Source: Acidobacteriota bacterium
GTDB lineage: Bacteria > Acidobacteriota > Terriglobia > Bryobacterales > UBA6623
DNA length: 64,000 nt
NCBI GenBank assembly: GCA_016125275.1
Contig: WGMB01000007.1
Coordinates: forward strand, 62,001-126,000
Direction of reading: 5' to 3'
Below are positions 18,950 through 33,869 of this stretch, in pieces. Numbering within the stretch: the stretch's first letter is position 1; each line of letters starts with the position of its first letter. The notes beneath the pieces were generated by a model. It saw only the letters and a program-made list of their open reading frames with translations, ran no database searches and was not told the DNA's origin. The position numbers were made by a program, and so were the translations under genes.

Positions 18950-21900
18950 ATGAGTCTTCCTGAGTTTTCGATCCGACGGCCCGTCACCGTCTTGATGGGC
19001 TGCGTGGTTGCGATCCTGCTCGGTGCGATCGCGTTCGTGGAGATTCCGGTCGATTTGATGCCGGAAACCGAGTACCCCACCATTACAGTCAGCGCGCAGT
19101 ACCCCGGCGTGGCTCCGGCCGAAATGGAGACGCTGGTGGCGCGACCGCTCGAAGAGGCGATGGCCTCGGCTCCGAACGTCGAGGAGCTGACGTCGACCGC
19201 CAACGAAGGCCAGGCGTCGGTGCGCGTCCGCTTCGAGTACGGCATGGATCTGGACGAGGCCGCCAACGAGCTGCGCGCCCGCATCGACCGCAATCGCGGC
19301 CGGCTCCCCGACGACATGGAGCCGCCGATGATGTACAAGTTCGACACCTCGCAGTTCCCGATCATGTTCATCACGGTCCGGGCCAACGAGATGGACGGCA
19401 AGGCGCTGCGGCACTTCGCCGAGAAGAGCGTGCAGTACCGCCTGGAGCGTGCGCCCGGCGTGGCGCAGGCGCGGGTGAGCGGCGGCTTCCGCCGGCAGAT
19501 CCACGTCGACCTCGACCTGGACAAGCTGCGGGCGCTGAATCTCTCGGTGGCCGACGTCGTCAGCCGGCTGCGCGAGGAGAACCGCAACATCCCGGTCGGG
19601 CCGGTCAACGAAGGCCGCTACGAGGTGCTGCTGCGCTCCCAGGGCGAGTTCACCAGCCTCGAAGACATTCTCAATGTGGGCGTGGCGACGCGCGGGGCCG
19701 TGCCGGTCTATCTGCGCGACATCGCGACCGTGGAGGACTCCTTCGAGGAGGTCCGCTACATCGTCTCGGTGAACTTCGAGCCCGCCGTGCGCATGTACAT
19801 CTACAAGCAGTCCGGCGCGAACACCGTGAAGGTCTCCGACGCGATGTGGCAGGAGGCCCGTGAGATCGAGCGCGACAACCCCGGCGTGACGCTGGAGGCG
19901 ACCTGGGATTCGGCGGACTTCATCCGCTCGTCGATCCGCAACGTGGAGAGTGCCACGGTGGTCGGCGGCGGCCTGGCGGTGTTCGTGCTGCTGTTCTTCC
20001 TACGCAGCTTCTCGTCGACGCTGATCATCGGCGTGGCGATCCCTGTGTCGGTGATCGCGACCTTCGCGCTGATGTACTTCAACGGCTTCACGCTCAACAC
20101 GGTCAGCTTCGGCGGCCTTGCGCTGGGCGTGGGCATGCTGGTGGACAACTCGATCGTGGTGCTCGAGAACATCTTCCGGCATCGCGAGGAAGGCCAGACG
20201 CCGCTCAACGCCGCCATCGACGGCTCGGACGAGGTCGCCATGGCGATCACCGCCTCGACGCTGACGACGGTGGCGGTGTTCGTGCCGGTGGTCTTCATCG
20301 GCGGCATGTCGGCGGAGACCTTCAAGCAGCTCGCCTATGTGGTCTCGTTCGCGCTGCTGTGCTCGTTGATCATTTCGATCACGGTGGTGCCGTCGCTTTC
20401 GGCGAGGGTGCTGCGGGCCGGCGCGGCGACCAGCCGCAAGGGCCTCTCCGGTTGGATGGGAAGGGTGCAGGACGACATGGCCGAGTCCTACGGCAACCTG
20501 GTCGGCTGGGCGCTCAACCATCGGCTGCTGGTGGTGACGACGGCCGTCGCGCTGTTCGCCGGCTCGATGTACGTGATTCCGCTGATCGGCGTGGAGCTCC
20601 AGCCCGAAGTCGACGAGGGCATGATCATGGTCGACGTCGAGCTCGAGCCCGGCACGCGGGTGGAAGTCACCGACAAGGTGATGATGGATTTGGCCCACAT
20701 CGTGGACGACAACGTGCCCGAGGCCAAGTACATCATGACCGAGGCCGGGTCGAACTCGAGCTTCTACTACCGAGGCACCAACTCGGGCCGGCTGCGCATC
20801 GACCTGGTTTCGGCGGCGGAGCGCGACCGCACCGCCCGCGACGTGGTGAATCAGCTCCGGCCCTTGCTCGCCGCCGAACCCGGCATGGTGGTCCAGACGC
20901 GGGTCTCGAGCGGCACCTTCCGGCGCGGCGACGGCGAAGGCGAGCGGCTCTCGGTGGAGATCCGCGGCTTCGACCCCGACGTGACGCAGGATCTGGCCGA
21001 GCAGGTGCGCGAGGCGATGCTGACGACCGAAGGCGTGGCCTCGGCGCAGGTCAGCCGGCGGCCGGGCACGCCGGAAATGCTGGTGCGGGTGGACCGCGCC
21101 AAGGCGACCAGCATGGGCTTGCAGGTCTCCGACGTGTCGCAGACCCTGGAGACGGCCATCGGCGGCTCGCGGGCGTCCATGTTCCGCGAGGACGGCGACG
21201 AGTACGACATTCTGGTGCGCCTCAAGGAAGAGGACCGCTTGAGCATCGGGCAGGTGGGCGAAGTGCCGATCACCTTGCGCGACGGCACTACGGTTCCGGC
21301 CCAGAGCCTGATTCGCATGGACCGCCAGGAAGGGCCGGTGGAGATTCGGCGCAAGGACCAGCAGCGCATCATCGTGGTCAACGGCACGCTCGGCGACCGC
21401 GACTTGGGATCGATCGTGGCGGACCTGCAGGAGAAGATCCGGGCCATCCCCAAGCCGCGCGGATATGAGGTGATCGTGGGCGGCGAGTACGAGGAGCAGG
21501 AGGAGGCCTTCCAGGCGATGACCTTCGCGGCGGTGCTGGCGCTGCTGCTGGTCTACATGGTGATGGCCTCGCAGTTCGAATCGCTGCGCGACCCCTTCAT
21601 CATCCTGTTCTCGATTCCGCTGGCGGCCGTCGGCGTGACGACGATCCTGGTGCTCACGGACACGACCTTCAACATGCAGGCGTTTCTGGGGGTGATCGTG
21701 CTGGTGGGCATCGTGGTCAACAACGCCATCGTGCTGATCGACTACACCAACCTGCTGATCCGCGACCACGGCATGCCGTTGCGTGAGGCCGTGATGACGG
21801 CGGGCAAGCGGCGGCTGCGGCCGATTCTGATGACGACCTCGACGACCGTGCTCGGGCTGCTGCCGATGTCTCTGGGCATCGGCGAGGGCTCGGAGCTGCA

Positions 21901-22069
21901 GGCGCCGATGGCGCGCGTGGTGATCGGGGGGCTGACGACCTCCACGCTCATCACGCTCGTGTTCATCCCGGTCGTCTTCTATACGCTCGAGCAGCGGGCC
22001 GAGCGCAGTCGGCAGCGGCGGATGCTGCCCGACGAGGCGGAGCTGCAACCGGCGCCTTCCGGCGACTAG
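18950..22069 (+). CDS. RND efflux pump subunit 2 (HAE1/AcrB-like)
   Basis: This 1039-residue paralogue of the preceding pump is collinear with it over its full length: [19 protein letters not shown] start, [15 protein letters not shown] in TM4, [20 protein letters not shown] in TM10. It begins 16 nt after the first RND stop, so both are read from one mRNA. A strong intrinsic terminator directly after it ends that mRNA. It is the most divergent of the three at the silent level across the TM4 region. It could form homotrimers or, as in MdtBC, mixed trimers with its neighbours. Confidence 0.93.
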   Translation: MSLPEFSIRRPVTVLMGCVVAILLGAIAFVEIPVDLMPETEYPTITVSAQYPGVAPAEMETLVARPLEEAMASAPNVEELTSTANEGQASVRVRFEYGMDLDEAANELRARIDRNRGRLPDDMEPPMMYKFDTSQFPIMFITVRANEMDGKALRHFAEKSVQYRLERAPGVAQARVSGGFRRQIHVDLDLDKLRALNLSVADVVSRLREENRNIPVGPVNEGRYEVLLRSQGEFTSLEDILNVGVATRGAVPVYLRDIATVEDSFEEVRYIVSVNFEPAVRMYIYKQSGANTVKVSDAMWQEAREIERDNPGVTLEATWDSADFIRSSIRNVESATVVGGGLAVFVLLFFLRSFSSTLIIGVAIPVSVIATFALMYFNGFTLNTVSFGGLALGVGMLVDNSIVVLENIFRHREEGQTPLNAAIDGSDEVAMAITASTLTTVAVFVPVVFIGGMSAETFKQLAYVVSFALLCSLIISITVVPSLSARVLRAGAATSRKGLSGWMGRVQDDMAESYGNLVGWALNHRLLVVTTAVALFAGSMYVIPLIGVELQPEVDEGMIMVDVELEPGTRVEVTDKVMMDLAHIVDDNVPEAKYIMTEAGSNSSFYYRGTNSGRLRIDLVSAAERDRTARDVVNQLRPLLAAEPGMVVQTRVSSGTFRRGDGEGERLSVEIRGFDPDVTQDLAEQVREAMLTTEGVASAQVSRRPGTPEMLVRVDRAKATSMGLQVSDVSQTLETAIGGSRASMFREDGDEYDILVRLKEEDRLSIGQVGEVPITLRDGTTVPAQSLIRMDRQEGPVEIRRKDQQRIIVVNGTLGDRDLGSIVADLQEKIRAIPKPRGYEVIVGGEYEEQEEAFQAMTFAAVLALLLVYMVMASQFESLRDPFIILFSIPLAAVGVTTILVLTDTTFNMQAFLGVIVLVGIVVNNAIVLIDYTNLLIRDHGMPLREAVMTAGKRRLRPILMTTSTTVLGLLPMSLGIGEGSELQAPMARVVIGGLTTSTLITLVFIPVVFYTLEQRAERSRQRRMLPDEAELQPAPSGD

Positions 22070-22263: not shown

Positions 22264-25200
22264 ATGAGTCTGCCTGAATTCTCGATTCGCCGTCCGGTGA
22301 CGATCCTGATGGCCTGCCTGGTCTGCATGCTGCTGGGGGCGATCTCGTTCTTCGAGATCCCCGTGGACCTGATGCCGCAGATCGATCAGCCCACGCTGAG
22401 CATCAACATCGACTACCCCGGCGTGGCGCCCGAAGAGATCGAGACCTTGGTGAGCCGGCCGATGGAGCAGATCGTCAGCTCCGCGCCGGGCGTCGAGCGT
22501 GTCCGCTCCACCTCGACCGAAGGCCGCTCATCGGTGCAGATCGAGTTCGTCTACGGCACCGACATCGACGTGGCGACCGACGAGGTCCGCTCCAGGATGG
22601 ACCGCGGCCGGCGCTCGCTGCCCGACGACATCGACCCGCCCTTCATCTTCAAGTTCGACGTGACGCAGTTCCCGATCATGTTCTTGACCGTGGCCGCCGA
22701 CGACATGGACGCCAAGGAGCTGCGCAGCTTCGTGGACCACGATCTGGTCTACCGCATGGAGCGCATCCCGGGCGTCGGCCAGGTGGGCGTGAACGGCGGT
22801 CTTCGGCGGCAGATCAACGTCGATCTCAACCTGCCCAAGCTGCGGGCGCTCGACCTCTCGGTGGCGCAGGTGGTGCAGCGCATCCGCAGCGAGAACCTCA
22901 ACCGCCCGGTCGGGCCGGTGAAGGAAGGTCGCTTCGAGGTGCTGCTCCGGACCACGGGCGAGTACGAGAATCTCGAGCAGATCCTCAACGTAGCGCTGAC
23001 CTCCCGTGACGGCGTGCCGGTCTACGTGCGCGACGTGGCCACGGTGGAGGACGGGCACGAGGACATCCGCTACTACGTCGGCGTCAACGGCAAAGAGGCG
23101 CTGCGCGTGATCGTGTTCAAGCAGTCCGGCGCGAACACGGTGCAGGTCTCCGAGGGCGTCTGGAAGGAGGTGGAGCAGATCCACCGCGACCATCCGAACC
23201 TGCACATCGACAAGACGATGGATACGGCCGACTTCATCATCGCGGCCATCGACAACGTCAAGTCCGCCGCGCTGGCGGGCTCGGTGCTGGCCATCGCGGT
23301 GCTGCTGTTCTTCTTGCGCAGCTTCTCGTCGACGCTGATCATCGGCGTGGCGATCCCGATTTCGGTGATCTCGACGTTTGCGCTGATGTACTTCAACGGC
23401 TTTACGCTCAACACGGTCAGCTTCGGCGGGCTGGCGCTGGGCGTGGGCATGCTGGTGGACAACGCCATCGTGGTGCTGGAGAACATCTATCGCCACCGCG
23501 AAGAAGGCCTGTCGGTGCGCGAGGCCTCGATTCTGGGCAGCAACGAGGTGGCTACGGCCATCACGGCTTCGACGATGACGACGATCGCCGTATTCGTGCC
23601 GGTGGTCTTCATGGGCGGCTACTCGGCGCAGACCTTCACGCAGTTGGCCTACGTGGTGTCGTTCTCGCTGCTTTGCTCGCTGGCGGTCGGTCTGACGGTG
23701 GTGCCGGTGCTGTGCTCCAAGATGCTGCGCGGCTCCAGGGCGAAGATGCCGGGGACGGGCGGCGGCATCGTGGACCGTCTGGCGTCGGCGTACGCGGGCT
23801 CGGTGAGCTGGGCTCTGGACCATCGGCTGGTGGTGTCGGCGGCGGCGGTCGGATCGTTCGCGCTGGCGATGTGGATGATGCCGCTGATCGGCGTGGAGCT
23901 CGAGCCGCAGGTGGACGAAGGCCAGATTCGCGTGAACGTGGAGCTGGAGGCAGGCACGCACGCCGAGATCACCAAGCAGGTGATCGATCAGATGTACCAA
24001 ATCGTCCGCAACGAGGTGCCCGAAGCCGAGTATGTGATGACCGAGGCGGGGCAGAACAGCCCCTTCCGCGGCATCGCCACGCACCTGGGCGAGCTGCGCA
24101 TTACGCTGGGCGACGCCGACACCCGCGACCGGACGGCGGCCGACGTCGCCAACCTGCTGCGGCCCATGCTGATGAGCGTGGTGCCCGGCAGCCAGGTCCG
24201 CACGCGCGTGGACAGCGGAAACTTCGGCCGGCGCGGCGGCTCCTCCGGCAGCGACCGCCTCTCGGTCGAGGTCCGCGGCTATGACCAGGACATGACCCAG
24301 GAGCTGGCGCTGACGGTACGCAACGCCATGCTGGCGACGCCGGGCGTGGTGGAAGCGCAGCTCAGCCGTCAGCCGGGCATGCCCGAGATGGTGGTGAAGG
24401 TCGATCGCCTCAAGGCCGCCAGCATGGGCATGACGGTGGAAGACGTGGCCGACACGCTCGAAACCGCGGTGGGCGGCCGCCGCACGTCGTTCTTCCGCGA
24501 GGCCGGCGACGAGTACGACATCATCGTGCGGCTGCGCGAGGAGGACCGCCTGGGCGTCGACCAGGTGGGCGACATTCCGCTGCGCACTCCGAACGGACGG
24601 CTGATCACGGCCGACCAAGTCGTGCAGTTGTCGCGCATGGAGGGCCCGGTCCAGATCGACCGCTTGGACCAGCAGCGCATCATCATCGTTTCGGGAACGA
24701 TCGCGGACCGCGACCTGGGGTCCATCGTGTCGGACCTGGAGCCGACCCTGGAGTCGATCCCGCGGCCGGCCGGCTACGAGATTCGGCTGGGCGGCGAGTA
24801 CGAGGACCAGGTGGAGGCCTTCCACGACCTGCTGTTCGCGTCCATCCTGGCCTTCATCCTGGTCTACATGGTGATGGCGGCGCAGTTCGAGTCGTTGCGC
24901 GACCCGTTCATCATCATCTTCTCGATCCCGCTGGCGGCGATCGGCGTGGTGACGACGCTGATCCTCACCGACACGACGTTCAACATGCAGGGCTTCCTGG
25001 GCATCATCGTGCTGGTGGGCATCGTGGTGAACAACGCCATCGTGCTGGTGGACTACGCCAACCAGTTGCGCCGCGAGCACGGCTACAACGTGCGGGACGC
25101 GGTGGTGACGGCCGGGGGCCGGCGCCTGCGCCCGATCTTGATGACGACGGCGACGACGGTGCTGGGCCTGGTTCCGATGGCCCTGGGGCTGGGCCAAGGC

Positions 25201-25383
25201 GGAGAGCTGCAGGCCCCGCTGGCGCGCGTGGTGGTGGGCGGTCTGCTGACCTCCACGCTCATCACGCTGGTCTTCATCCCGGTGGTCTACGCGACGCTCG
25301 AAGAGTTCTCCGAAAAAGCCGAGGAGCGCCGCCGCGTGGCCGAAGCCGGTGACGCCGAGCCGCAGCCGGTCTCCGGCGACTAG
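22264..25383 (+). CDS. RND efflux pump subunit 3 (HAE1/AcrB-like)
   Basis: This 1039-residue third paralogue starts [19 protein letters not shown] and has [15 protein letters not shown] in TM4 and [20 protein letters not shown] in TM10. It has no adaptor of its own and sits behind the terminator of the first two pumps, so it is separately transcribed. Its TM3-TM4 coding region is almost identical in DNA to RND1 (163 of 165 bases, 23324-23488 against 16871-17035), although flanking regions differ clearly. Substrate unknown. Confidence 0.93.
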
Positions 25384-29800: not shown

Positions 29801-31645
29801 TTAGCGGGACTTGACGCGGGCTTCGAGCTTGCGTCGCAGCTCGGCCGCCTGATCGGGGCGGCCGGCGGCTTCCAGGGCCTGCACGGCTTGCTGGAAGACC
29901 GGCACGACGCGCTCGTCGCCGGCGTCGAGCAACTGCTCCTGGAGCTTGCGGCTGAGCCCGTAGGCCTCGTCGGCTTCGGCCTCGCGCCCTTGCAGCTTGT
30001 GCGCCGTCCCCAGCCGCTCGAGCAGAGCGGACTGCAACAGGCGGTCCTCGCCCACCCGCGCCAGGCCGGTCATGGCGTCGCGTTCGGCTTCTTCATTGCG
30101 TCGCAGATCCAGCAGGACGCCGGAGCGAATCGCGAAAAAGGCCGGGGGAAGCGAGGCCGGGTCGGTGACCGCCGCCAGCGCGTCGAGCACGGCCAGCGTA
30201 CGGTAGGGCGGCCAGCGCAGTTGGCCGGCGTTGAGCGCCGTCCAGACGGCCGCCGGGGCGCGCTGCCCGCTGCGGATCTCCCCCGCCAGCAGGTCGCGAA
30301 AGGCTTCCAGGTCCGGCGGGCCCACCCGCCAGCTCATCTCCAGCTCGAGCTCCCGGCGATTCTGGTCGGCGCCGGCGTAGCGGCACACTTCCGCCAGCAG
30401 CCTGGCGCCGGCTTGGGTGGAGATCGTGACCCGCTGCACCAGAAAGCGCAGCAACTCCAGCGCCAGCCGCTGCCGGGTGGCCTCGCTCAGGCTCTCCCGC
30501 AGGCCGTAGGCCACGGCGGCGTCCTGAAAGCCGTAGACGATCTCGCCGGGCAGGGAGGGATGCTGGAAGCGCTCGGCGAAGTAGTGCGCCTCCGAGTCCG
30601 CGCCCAACGATTCGTCGAGCTCGTCGATCACCTCGTCCATCCGCTCGTCGTCGACGCCCAGAAAGGACAGCAGCGTCTTGACCGGGATGTTGTCGCCGCA
30701 CAGAGTCGCCAGGTGGACGAAGCTCGCCAGCAGCTTGCCGCTCTCCGCGTCACACTCCGCCAGAGCCGTTTCGAGCGAAGCGGCGGCGGAGGTCTCCGCG
30801 CCCCCTTGCCAGCTCCAGCCGCCGGTCGGCCGGGCCGCCAGCAGGCCCTCGTCGGCCAGCCGCGTGATCGCCCGCGCCGCCGCGCCCGCGCCGCCTTGGC
30901 TCTCCCGGTGGATGCGGTCATAGACGGCCGGCGGGATTCCTGGGCGCTCCAGCCGAGACTCGCTGAGCGCTTCGAGCTCGCCGCGGTCGAGCGGCATGAC
31001 GTCGAAGCGGACGTTCGCCCGCCCGCGCACCACCTTGCCCACGCCTTCGCGGCGGTGCGAGGAGATCAGCAGCTTCACGTGCGGCGCGTCCATCGCCAGC
31101 GACAGCAGCGCCTCGCGCAGAGGCATCGGCAGCGACGAGGTGTCCGCCACGTGCAGCGCCAGCCGCTCGTCGTCTCCGAGCCCGGCGGCCAAGGCGGTCC
31201 ACGGCGCGGCGTCGGCCAGGGCGGCCGGCAGCCGCTCCACCAGGGCTTCCGACTCCGGGTCCAGGCCGGCCAGGGCCGCCGCCAGCGAGAGCTCGGTCAA
31301 CCCCGGGCGCGGCGAACGGCCCGCCAGCCGCTCGAAGGCTTGCTGCACGGCCGGCGCGACCGGCCGACCGCGCTTGGCCTGCTGAAACTCCCAGTAGGCG
31401 TGCAGGTTCAGGCTCTCCGGTTCGGCGCCGTCGAGGTCGAGCTCCGCGGCGAAGACCCGCAGGCCCCTGCGGCGCAGCGCGGCTACGCTCTGCCGTTGCA
31501 GGTAGCGACGGCCGCCGCCGGGGAAGCCGGCGAGCACGACCACCGTGGCGCGCTCGGCGTCGGCGTCCTGGAGCTGATCGGCGAGAGCGGCGATCTCGCC
31601 CTCGTGATGCAAGTTGATGGCGAAACCCTGGGAGTCCCTGTCCAC
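29801..31645 (-). CDS. Large protein with degenerate P-loop and C-terminal helical repeats (STAND-like)
   Basis: This 614-residue protein starts at GTG 31645, 6 nt from the formimidoyltransferase stop, so it is in that operon. Residues 33-50 (ATVVVLAGFPGGGRRYLQ) have the place and shape of a Walker A loop, but the invariant Lys-Ser/Thr is replaced by Arg-Arg. A later LALHVADTSSLP and VKLLISSHRREG resemble Walker B and sensor strands of AAA+/STAND ATPases. From about residue 400 on it is helical, ending in TPR-like repeats (LERLGTAHKLQGREAEADEAYGL). The resemblance is structural guesswork; no named family is recognised. Confidence 0.7.
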   Translation of the reverse strand: MDRDSQGFAINLHHEGEIAALADQLQDADAERATVVVLAGFPGGGRRYLQRQSVAALRRRGLRVFAAELDLDGAEPESLNLHAYWEFQQAKRGRPVAPAVQQAFERLAGRSPRPGLTELSLAAALAGLDPESEALVERLPAALADAAPWTALAAGLGDDERLALHVADTSSLPMPLREALLSLAMDAPHVKLLISSHRREGVGKVVRGRANVRFDVMPLDRGELEALSESRLERPGIPPAVYDRIHRESQGGAGAAARAITRLADEGLLAARPTGGWSWQGGAETSAAASLETALAECDAESGKLLASFVHLATLCGDNIPVKTLLSFLGVDDERMDEVIDELDESLGADSEAHYFAERFQHPSLPGEIVYGFQDAAVAYGLRESLSEATRQRLALELLRFLVQRVTISTQAGARLLAEVCRYAGADQNRRELELEMSWRVGPPDLEAFRDLLAGEIRSGQRAPAAVWTALNAGQLRWPPYRTLAVLDALAAVTDPASLPPAFFAIRSGVLLDLRRNEEAERDAMTGLARVGEDRLLQSALLERLGTAHKLQGREAEADEAYGLSRKLQEQLLDAGDERVVPVFQQAVQALEAAGRPDQAAELRRKLEARVKSR

Positions 31646-31650
31646 AAGCT

Positions 31651-32565
31651 TCAGTCTAGCGAGCCCGCCGGGGCCCCCGCCGCTTCGAGGCGCCGCTCGA
31701 GGATTCGTTCCGCCGTGGAAGGCGGCAGCAGCAGCTCCTCGAACGAGGCTCCCTCGAAGGCCGCTCGCGGCGCCAGGCCGATGAGCTCGCTGCCGGCGCA
31801 CTCCACGCCGTCGAGGGCCGCCTCGCGCCGAATGCGCTCGACCACCACGGCCAGGCCGGTCCGCCGGAAGTCGGTGAGGTTCATCGAGACCTGCGTCAGC
31901 CCCTGCCCGGGCAGCTCCAAGCCGAGCGCCTTGACGGCCGGGTAGCCTCCGGAGGATTCGCGGATCAGCCGCGCGATGCGGCGGGCCGGCGCCGGCTCGG
32001 CGGTGCGCAGGTTGACGTTGAAGGCAATCAGGAAGTCCCTGACGCCGACGGCGGTCGCTCCGGCGCTGGGGTGCAGCCGGGGGCCGCCCACGTCGGGCCG
32101 GCGGGCCGGGTCCCGGGGTGCGGCTTCGAGCAATCCTTCGAAGCCGCCTTGGCGAACCGCCTCCAGACGGCGCCGCTCCTCGCGCCGCGCCGCGCGGCCG
32201 TAGAAGTACGACGGCACGCCCAGCCGCGCCCAGAGCTCGTCGGCAAAGGCCTCGGCGGCGGCGAGGCAGTCCGCCCACGCGCCGCCTCGCAGCGGGATGA
32301 ACGGCGCCACGTCGAGCGCCCCGATCCGCGGATGAGCGCCCCGGTGGCGGCGCAGGTCGATCGACTCGACCGCCACGGCCGCCGCCGACAGCAGCGCTTC
32401 CACAAGCGGCTCGGGAGCGCCGGCCAGCGTGAAGACCGAGCGGTTGTGATCGGCGTCCGCGGAATGGTCGAGCAGGAACACGCCCGGAACCTCGGACAGG
32501 GCGGCTCGCAAGCGCTCGAGGACGGCTGCGTCCCGTCCCTCGGAGAAGTTCGGGACGGTCTCCAT
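31651..32565 (-). CDS. Glutamate formimidoyltransferase
   Basis: This 304-residue enzyme transfers the formimino group of formimidoyl-glutamate to tetrahydrofolate at the end of histidine breakdown. It matches the transferase half of FTCD: METVPNFSEGRDAAVL at the start, the VFTLAGAPE region, RRHRGAHPRIGALDVAPFIPLRG with the catalytic-type histidine, and FNVNLRT plus QVSMNLTDF in the C-terminal subdomain. There is no cyclodeaminase domain. The start is ATG 32565, 11 nt after the upstream gene. All key motifs look intact, unlike its partner upstream. Confidence 0.9.
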   Translation of the reverse strand: METVPNFSEGRDAAVLERLRAALSEVPGVFLLDHSADADHNRSVFTLAGAPEPLVEALLSAAAVAVESIDLRRHRGAHPRIGALDVAPFIPLRGGAWADCLAAAEAFADELWARLGVPSYFYGRAARREERRRLEAVRQGGFEGLLEAAPRDPARRPDVGGPRLHPSAGATAVGVRDFLIAFNVNLRTAEPAPARRIARLIRESSGGYPAVKALGLELPGQGLTQVSMNLTDFRRTGLAVVVERIRREAALDGVECAGSELIGLAPRAAFEGASFEELLLPPSTAERILERRLEAAGAPAGSLD

Positions 32566-32576
32566 GAAGCGCGCGC

Positions 32577-33869
32577 TCAACGCCGGGACTCCAGAGGGGC
32601 GCGAGAGCGGTCGGACGATCCTTCTAGCGGCGGCGGCGCTCCGGCGCGGTAGATCACCCGGCCGGCCTGAATCGTCAGGGCGCATAGGTTCACGCCGAAG
32701 AAGTAGGGGATTTCGCGATAGTCCGCCACGTCAAAGACCGTCATGTCGGCCTGCTTGTCCGGCTCGATGGACCCGATTCGGTCGCCCTGTCCGATGGCGA
32801 CGGCGGCGTTCAGGGTCGCGGCCGCGATCGCTTCCTCGGGCATCAAGCGCATCTCCCGGCAGGCCAACGAGATCGCCATCGGCAGGCTGAATCCGGGCGA
32901 CAGCGTCGGCCCAAAGCCGCTGGCCAGCGCCACGGCCGCCCCCCGGTCGACCAACCGGCGCGCCGGCGGATACGGACTCTCTTGATGATAGGCGACCCCG
33001 GGCAGCAGCATCGCGACAGTCTGGGAGTCGGCTAGCAGGTCGATGGCCGCCTCGGAGATCTTTCCCAGCCGCTCGACGCTCGACGCCCCCAGCTCGAGCG
33101 CCAGGCGGACGCAACTGTCGGTCTCGTCGCCGTGATCGAGCAGCTTGAGCGCGAAGCCCCGTTGCCGGGCGCTGACCAGGATGCGCCGGGCGGCGGCGAC
33201 GTCGAACGCGGCGCGACCGAGCTCGACCTCCACGGCGTAGCACAGGCTCTTGCGGCTCCCGAGCTTGTCGAGCACTTCCAGGGCCCTCTCCTCCGCCCGT
33301 GGACGGTCCAAGCCGGGCGGCACGCCGACGCCGAAGACGGCGGCCACGTTCACCGGATCGCCCGCCAAGGCCTGCGCCACGCGCAGCCCCTTGATCTCGG
33401 CCTCCATCTCCAGGTTCTGCCGCGAATGCAGCCCGACCGTCGTGGCGCCGGCGGCGGCGGCCAGGTAGGTCCAGCGGCGGGCGCGGGCGCGCAGCTCTCG
33501 GGCCGGGATCGCACGAATCGAGCTCGGCGTGCGCTCGCCTTGCTCGTTCCACGCCACGGGGGCGCCGGCGATACGCTCTTCGAACCGCCGCAAGGGCGGC
33601 CCGGCGAAAGCCAAGCGCATGTGCGCGTCGACGAAGCCCGGCAGCACGACTTTGCCGGACACGTCGATCACGCGGGCTTCCTTGGCGCGCGAGAGATTCT
33701 CGATCCGGCGCGTCGATCCGACCTCGACGATGCGCTGCCCGTCGATGAGGACCGAGCCGTCCCGGATCAAGCTCAAGTCGGAGAGTTGCAGCCCGCGCCG
33801 AGGGCGAGGACCTCGTAGCGTGATCAATTGCCGAGCCCCGCGCAGAAAGATGAGCTGCTTTCTCGGCAC
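32577..33869 (-). CDS. Imidazolonepropionase-like amidohydrolase lacking its metal ligands
   Basis: This 430-residue protein aligns by eye end to end with HutI, which hydrolyses imidazolonepropionate to formimidoyl-glutamate. The framework motifs are there: GKVVLPGFVDAH, AMLLPGVAYH, MPEEAIAAATLNAAVAIG and REIPYFFGVN. The ligands are not. HxH is H83-M-R85, the strand-5 KxH is KLL (242-244), SADHL is SVERL with Arg267, and ATD is ASG with Gly318. The SGYG substrate loop is absent too. The frame is intact with normal codon use, so this is probably a maintained non-zinc pseudoenzyme or an enzyme with new chemistry. It heads the operon with the formimidoyltransferase. Confidence 0.85.
   Translation of the reverse strand: MPRKQLIFLRGARQLITLRGPRPRRGLQLSDLSLIRDGSVLIDGQRIVEVGSTRRIENLSRAKEARVIDVSGKVVLPGFVDAHMRLAFAGPPLRRFEERIAGAPVAWNEQGERTPSSIRAIPARELRARARRWTYLAAAAGATTVGLHSRQNLEMEAEIKGLRVAQALAGDPVNVAAVFGVGVPPGLDRPRAEERALEVLDKLGSRKSLCYAVEVELGRAAFDVAAARRILVSARQRGFALKLLDHGDETDSCVRLALELGASSVERLGKISEAAIDLLADSQTVAMLLPGVAYHQESPYPPARRLVDRGAAVALASGFGPTLSPGFSLPMAISLACREMRLMPEEAIAAATLNAAVAIGQGDRIGSIEPDKQADMTVFDVADYREIPYFFGVNLCALTIQAGRVIYRAGAPPPLEGSSDRSRAPLESRR

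Follow-up and report, generated by a model that had tools for sequence, protein, structure and literature searches.

The hutI-like gene and its neighbours

The window, the whole 64,000-nucleotide stretch of an Acidobacteriota genome (order Bryobacterales) analysed here, carries on its minus strand a hutI-like reading frame without an internal stop, followed by ftcD and by a possible third gene of the same transcription unit:

32577–33869, minus strand: putative HutI-derived pseudoenzyme, GTG start, 430 aa (TIGR01224, 235 bits; Z 54.3 to Bacillus subtilis HutI, 2bb0)
31651–32565, minus strand: ftcD, glutamate formimidoyltransferase, 304 aa, transferase domain only (TIGR02024, 296 bits)
29801–31645, minus strand: possible third gene of the transcription unit, judged from spacing, about 614 aa, no known domain

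The earlier note had the coordinates and strand of the HutI-like gene right, and set it 12 nt before ftcD; the gap is 11 nt, the pseudo-hutI stop ending at 32577 and the ftcD ATG lying at 32565. The third frame starts 5 nt after ftcD; it had no Pfam match, a longer version of the frame had no NCBIfam match, and its conservation in relatives was not seen. A promoter and terminator scan at the locus gave nothing above chance. Elsewhere in the window, two neighbouring plus-strand frames of equal length (18950–22069 and 22264–25383, 1039 aa each) possibly represent a tandem duplication.

The best family for the window protein was TIGR01224 (hutI), though the score did not reach the equivalog cut-off of 298 bits. 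The homology to HutI was claimed to run over the full length, and phmmer indeed aligned the whole protein with B. subtilis HutI, covering all of 2bb0. The AlphaFold model (pLDDT 92, pTM 0.92) matched 2bb0 at 1.9 Å over 399 residues, and the best-matching amidohydrolase other than a HutI reached only Z 38.5. The HutI fold, with barrel and beta-sandwich, is thus present in the predicted structure, and the window gene is HutI by homology and modelled fold. The neighbouring formimidoyltransferase is intact, as had been noted: its score exceeds the TIGR02024 cut-off of 221 bits, and the conserved FtcD motifs are kept, GAHPRIG among them.

The metal site, the Hut pathway and the function of FtcD

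Alignments to HutI placed the following substitutions at metal-binding and catalytic positions:

33615–33623, minus strand: H83-M84-R85 in place of the HTH metal motif
33138–33146, minus strand: K242-L-L in place of KIH, followed by H246, whose placement depends on the alignment
33069–33071, minus strand: Arg267 in place of the His of SADH (reads SVER)
32916–32918, minus strand: Gly318 in place of the catalytic Asp (ATD to ASG)

The ligand losses that had been read by eye at HxH (H83-M84-R85), SADH (S-V-E-R267) and ATD (A-S-G318) were all borne out by the alignments. The reading of KxH as K242-L-L held in the gapless alignment but not with phmmer or the HutI profile, built from 95 intact HutIs, both of which insert two residues and bring H246 into the slot. 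Because the closest relative found, the copy of genome G002 (46% identical), aligns without a gap at KxH and likewise reads KLL, the KLL reading is preferred. On the preferred reading, four of the five ligands are lost in the window protein, three of them beyond dispute. The SGYG loop, earlier described as missing, is instead substituted by SRQN (HSRQN in the alignment). In a named set from about 20 phyla, every HutI from outside Acidobacteriota kept five of five ligands, which excludes chance.

The genome of the window (7.55 Mb, 97.6% complete) yielded no hutH, no hutU, no cyclodeaminase and no second hutI, for which the next best match scored only 34 bits; the canonical hutI with hutH and hutU that the earlier note proposed to look for elsewhere in the genome was therefore not found. 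Judged by its gene content, the genome is unable to run the Hut pathway. The 5-formyl-THF cycloligase (PF01812) was absent from the window genome and from all 100 genomes of the order searched, in a search that was positive in 11 of 14 control genomes. FtcD was present in 98 of the 100 genomes; one of the remaining two is 74% complete and the other heavily fragmented. As none of the genomes searched encodes the cycloligase, FtcD may be nearly essential to Bryobacterales. SHMT, which forms 5-formyl-THF as a side product, is encoded in the window genome, as is an FGase-family protein.

In relatives with the Hut pathway, FtcD is mostly fused to the cyclodeaminase (about 470 aa). Beside HutIs that have lost ligands (hereafter degenerate), or where the genome has no HutI, FtcD almost always consists of the bare transferase, about 300 aa long, with two ftcD-linked exceptions (452 and 460 aa). 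Shedding of the cyclodeaminase would be expected if FtcD moves formyl rather than formimino groups. A comparative-genomics paper reports that ygfA is generally missing from bacteria whose Hut pathway is of the FtcD type, that FtcD (COG3643) can take its place (PMC3223725, citing Jeanguenin 2010), and that an E. coli ygfA deletion was complemented by an Acidobacterium FtcD. Considering that the window FtcD scores above its family cut-off (296 versus 221 bits) in a genome without the cycloligase, we think it quite probable that this FtcD disposes of 5-formyl-THF, standing in for the missing cycloligase. On that reading a source of formimidoyl-glutamate is not needed, contrary to the previous suggestion that something else must make it. 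The idea of a sensor or scaffold for formimidoyl-glutamate likewise finds no support, as such a protein would have nothing to bind where hutH, hutU and cyclodeaminase are absent and FtcD likely acts on 5-formyl-THF.

The lipoyl synthase gene lipA recurs directly after ftcD in many Bryobacterales loci and is missing from the window locus:

L055:7129–8052 and L137:7159–8031: lipA after ftcD
L049, L053, L057, L062, L072, L079–L081, L084, L085, L090 and L124: further loci with lipA after ftcD

Lipoyl synthase (LipA) is required for glycine cleavage, and the recurrence of lipA after ftcD links FtcD to that process.

Degenerate HutIs in Bryobacterales and the location of constraint

Among the 100 genomes of the order, 28 HutI-like copies kept all five ligands and 46 were short of one to five. 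The locus contained hutU for 26 of the 28 intact copies versus none of the 46 degenerate ones; the two exceptions with intact ligands are in G037 and G027. The G027 copy (L074:4161–5306) keeps five ligands by alignment in a genome without a hutH or hutU match, and its ftcD lies elsewhere. Directly upstream of ftcD lie 28 of the 46 degenerate copies, across many genera, and the other 18, including all of genus g17, lie away from it. In ten genomes a degenerate copy coexists with an intact one from another HutI lineage, the latter mostly linked to hutU. FtcD occurs without an operon-lineage HutI in roughly 30 genomes, and this lineage is also missing from most genomes of the window's own family. 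In a named collection of 80 copies, 14 were degenerate, all from Acidobacteriota and several from Bryobacterales, Bryobacteraceae or Solibacteraceae; all the others were intact.

Further stages of degeneration were found beside ftcD. The G002 copy (L042:3941–5162), from the window's family, runs in two separate frames. Each half is about 46% identical to the window protein, and the motifs, which read HSR, KLL and ATA, have likewise lost their ligands; recent decay and assembly error are indistinguishable as causes of the frame break. In two other genomes most of the barrel is gone, while the two ends stay in a single open frame next to ftcD:

L058:4857–5648: barrel-deleted HutI remnant of G041, 260 aa
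L061:5578–6414: barrel-deleted HutI remnant of G043, 275 aa

Genus g17 (L076, L077 and L106–L112) carries highly degenerate HutIs of a DVRxG type, away from ftcD; in several of these loci, HutI follows a recurrent pair of genes, judged by eye to encode a small secreted protein and a larger, secretin-like one (about 750 aa).

On the full tree of 87 rows, the loss of ligands needed four changes. The window copy and the G007 copy formed a clade whose sister group, with 97/91 support, consisted of intact copies from family f2; this clade stood apart from the other degenerate groups. The well-supported branches alone force two to three changes, and a single loss was marginally rejected by an AU test run on 28 rows (p 0.04). 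On this phylogeny, the ligands were lost at least two to four times within the order.

Purifying selection on degenerate copies was seen in the best-sampled genus, g16, in which all copies read H-M(or L)-H-H-G. Their dN/dS of 0.03–0.07, the range that answers the earlier call for such a comparison across relatives and is far from 1, was lower than that of the adjacent ftcD (0.06–0.11) and no higher than that of pairs of intact HutIs (0.07–0.21). A scan of genome contigs with the window protein alone found no relative, and the window gene was compared with the same-family copies of G002 and G007 in place of congeners. Between the window and G002, codon positions 1, 2 and 3 differed at 0.41, 0.13 and 0.63 in the N-terminal domain, at 0.44–0.49, 0.43–0.49 and 0.63 in the barrel, and at 0.29, 0.23 and 0.55 in the C-terminal part, which shows selection on the window gene itself at the protein level, in the sandwich and C-terminal parts. 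Between the window and G007 copies, almost half of the nonsynonymous sites in the barrel are different. A DNA element was considered as the reason for the conserved 5′ end and rejected, synonymous differences there being as high as elsewhere.

The same pattern appeared across the order. For degenerate copies (roughly one per genus), mean column conservation came to 0.70 over the sandwich, 0.34 over the barrel and 0.56 over the C-terminal part. The corresponding values were 0.72, 0.71 and 0.71 for intact members of the operon lineage and 0.49, 0.59 and 0.58 for other HutIs. Constraint in the degenerate copies has moved out of the catalytic barrel and into the sandwich. The conserved region is as follows:

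33642–33854, minus strand: N-terminal beta-sandwich, residues 6–76, with an Arg-rich motif; best-conserved part of degenerate copies, codon position 2 differing from G002 at only 13% of sites

The motif comprises R10-G-A-R13-Q, R19, R24-R25 and R54-R55-x-E57-N58-L59-x-x-A62. Within the ftcD-linked lineage, the conserved sandwich residues (R10, A12, R13, R19, R25, R55, E57, N58, L59, A62 and R63) occur in degenerate and intact copies alike, and they are for the most part missing in the second HutI lineage of the order and in HutIs elsewhere.

Catalytic residues have thus been lost under purifying selection, as seen for the window gene from codon-position differences and for g16 from dN/dS. The proposal that the gene is a maintained pseudoenzyme whose product is selected is well served by these results (dN/dS 0.03–0.07 in g16; codon position 2 at 13% versus 43–49% in the window gene), and judging from sequence comparison we consider the window product very probably a maintained non-catalytic protein. 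The second role for which it would be kept is most likely older than the loss of catalysis and seated in the sandwich. Pseudoenzymes of the amidohydrolase superfamily are already known as such. A HutI-derived one was not found in the papers searched for imidazolonepropionase together with pseudoenzyme or Acidobacteria.

A possible partnership with FtcD and comparison with known systems

Considering these results, the scenario that we propose is as follows. HutI of the hutU-hutI-ftcD operon lineage, in which lipA often comes next, may already have had a second, non-catalytic role, exerted through the Arg-rich surface of its sandwich domain and most simply consisting in binding to FtcD, the simplest target because it is the recurrent neighbour. 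Binding would stabilise FtcD, assemble it or guide its folate substrate. Loss of the Hut pathway would have removed the catalytic constraint; the metal site would then have decayed in several lineages independently of one another, and the protein itself would have been kept for its second role. FtcD would meanwhile transfer the formyl group of 5-formyl-THF to glutamate, outside histidine degradation, and HutI would act in the mode of the inactive pseudo-dihydroorotase that Pseudomonas aspartate transcarbamoylase requires. A partnership with FtcD is probable on our analysis; for the whole chain, a maintained HutI-derived pseudoenzyme acting through its sandwich on a folate-repair FtcD, we would put the chances at about even. 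More tentatively, and with somewhat greater doubt than belief, the window protein may represent an unrecognised HutI-derived family in which the sandwich is the functional part and serves as a stabilising or obligate FtcD subunit in 5-formyl-THF repair, with repeated, independent loss of the catalytic site and, in some lineages, deletion of most of the barrel.

Several observations count against the partnership. The 18 degenerate copies not beside ftcD, and the roughly 30 genomes that have FtcD without a HutI of the operon lineage, indicate that FtcD does not always depend on a pseudo-HutI; moreover, the gene is on its way out in the window's family, and the reading frame of the G002 copy is broken. 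Co-variation between FtcD and HutI was considered as support and set aside as weak and post hoc. All 44 FtcDs from genomes whose copy is classed as degenerate or unlinked carry D236, against 48% of FtcDs from genomes without one, but this residue is phylogenetically clustered, with only about one concordant independent pair. FtcD F237 (numbered in the aligned stretch; F233 from the ATG) co-varied best with the presence of pseudo-HutI, agreeing in about five of seven independent pairs and ranking first of 167 columns, although it was picked post hoc and is underpowered.

The strongest rival, which we regard as unlikely though deserving real weight, is that the maintained pseudoenzyme has a role unrelated to FtcD, for example as a ligand- or nucleic-acid-binding regulator acting through its basic sandwich, the adjacency to ftcD being inherited. 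An Arg-rich sandwich with a mean net charge of about +3 would suit such a regulator, as would the unlinked copies (all of g17 included) and the frequent presence of FtcD without pseudo-HutI; however, 28 of 46 copies still lie directly upstream of ftcD in many genera, with the rest of the hut operon gone. It is less probable still that the gene is a relic drifting towards loss after the Hut pathway was lost, its open frame in the window being a stage of slow decay. The absence of operon-lineage HutI from most genomes of the window's family, the frame shift in G002 and the divergence of the barrel from G007 are what a relic would give, but 430 codons remain open after about one amino-acid change per site, and the g16 dN/dS, the strong region-specific constraint in the window gene itself and the confident model (pLDDT 92) argue against it. 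A new metal-free or differently metallated enzyme, acting for instance on N-formylglutamate, is quite improbable: although the fold is intact and N-formylglutamate is the expected product of FtcD on 5-formyl-THF, the barrel, which would house the active site, has the lowest conservation of all parts (0.34) and is mostly gone from two relatives, a new invariant motif did not come to light in it, and the window genome already has its FGase-family gene. A working HutI with rearranged ligands is scarcely credible, since H246 can fill the KxH slot in the profile alignment but the loss of three other ligands is unambiguous, the genome has neither hutH nor hutU, and the protein scores below the HutI cut-off (235 versus 298 bits).

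In one order, an active site has been lost at least two to four times, each time in copies that have no hutU linked to them, while another part of the protein stays selected. The intact, half-dead, dead and truncated stages can be compared as natural replicates of the evolution from enzyme to pseudoenzyme. The results also suggest that many histidine-degradation annotations in Bryobacterales are wrong, many proteins called HutI not being enzymes and those called FtcD probably serving folate repair.

Compared with HutI (TIGR01224; B. subtilis 2bb0), the window protein shares homology over its whole length, the fold (Z 54.3) and an ftcD neighbour, as in related hut operons, but it lacks the metal ligands, the catalytic Asp and the SGYG loop, its genome lacks the Hut pathway, and conservation among degenerate copies lies in the sandwich rather than in the barrel. 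The use of FtcD as a replacement for the cycloligase (PMC3223725) resembles the present case in the FtcD family and in the absence of ygfA, an Acidobacterium gene having been tested there; HutI goes unmentioned in the available part of that source, and the degenerate HutI companion is new here. In Pseudomonas, the activity of aspartate transcarbamoylase needs an inactive pseudo-dihydroorotase (PMC7053772). That protein derives from dihydroorotase and the window protein from HutI, and the need for the partner's activity was demonstrated there, whereas here it is proposed. In both cases, a chain of the amidohydrolase superfamily, apparently catalytically dead in the window, is paired with an active enzyme of a neighbouring pathway step, here encoded 11 nt further downstream.
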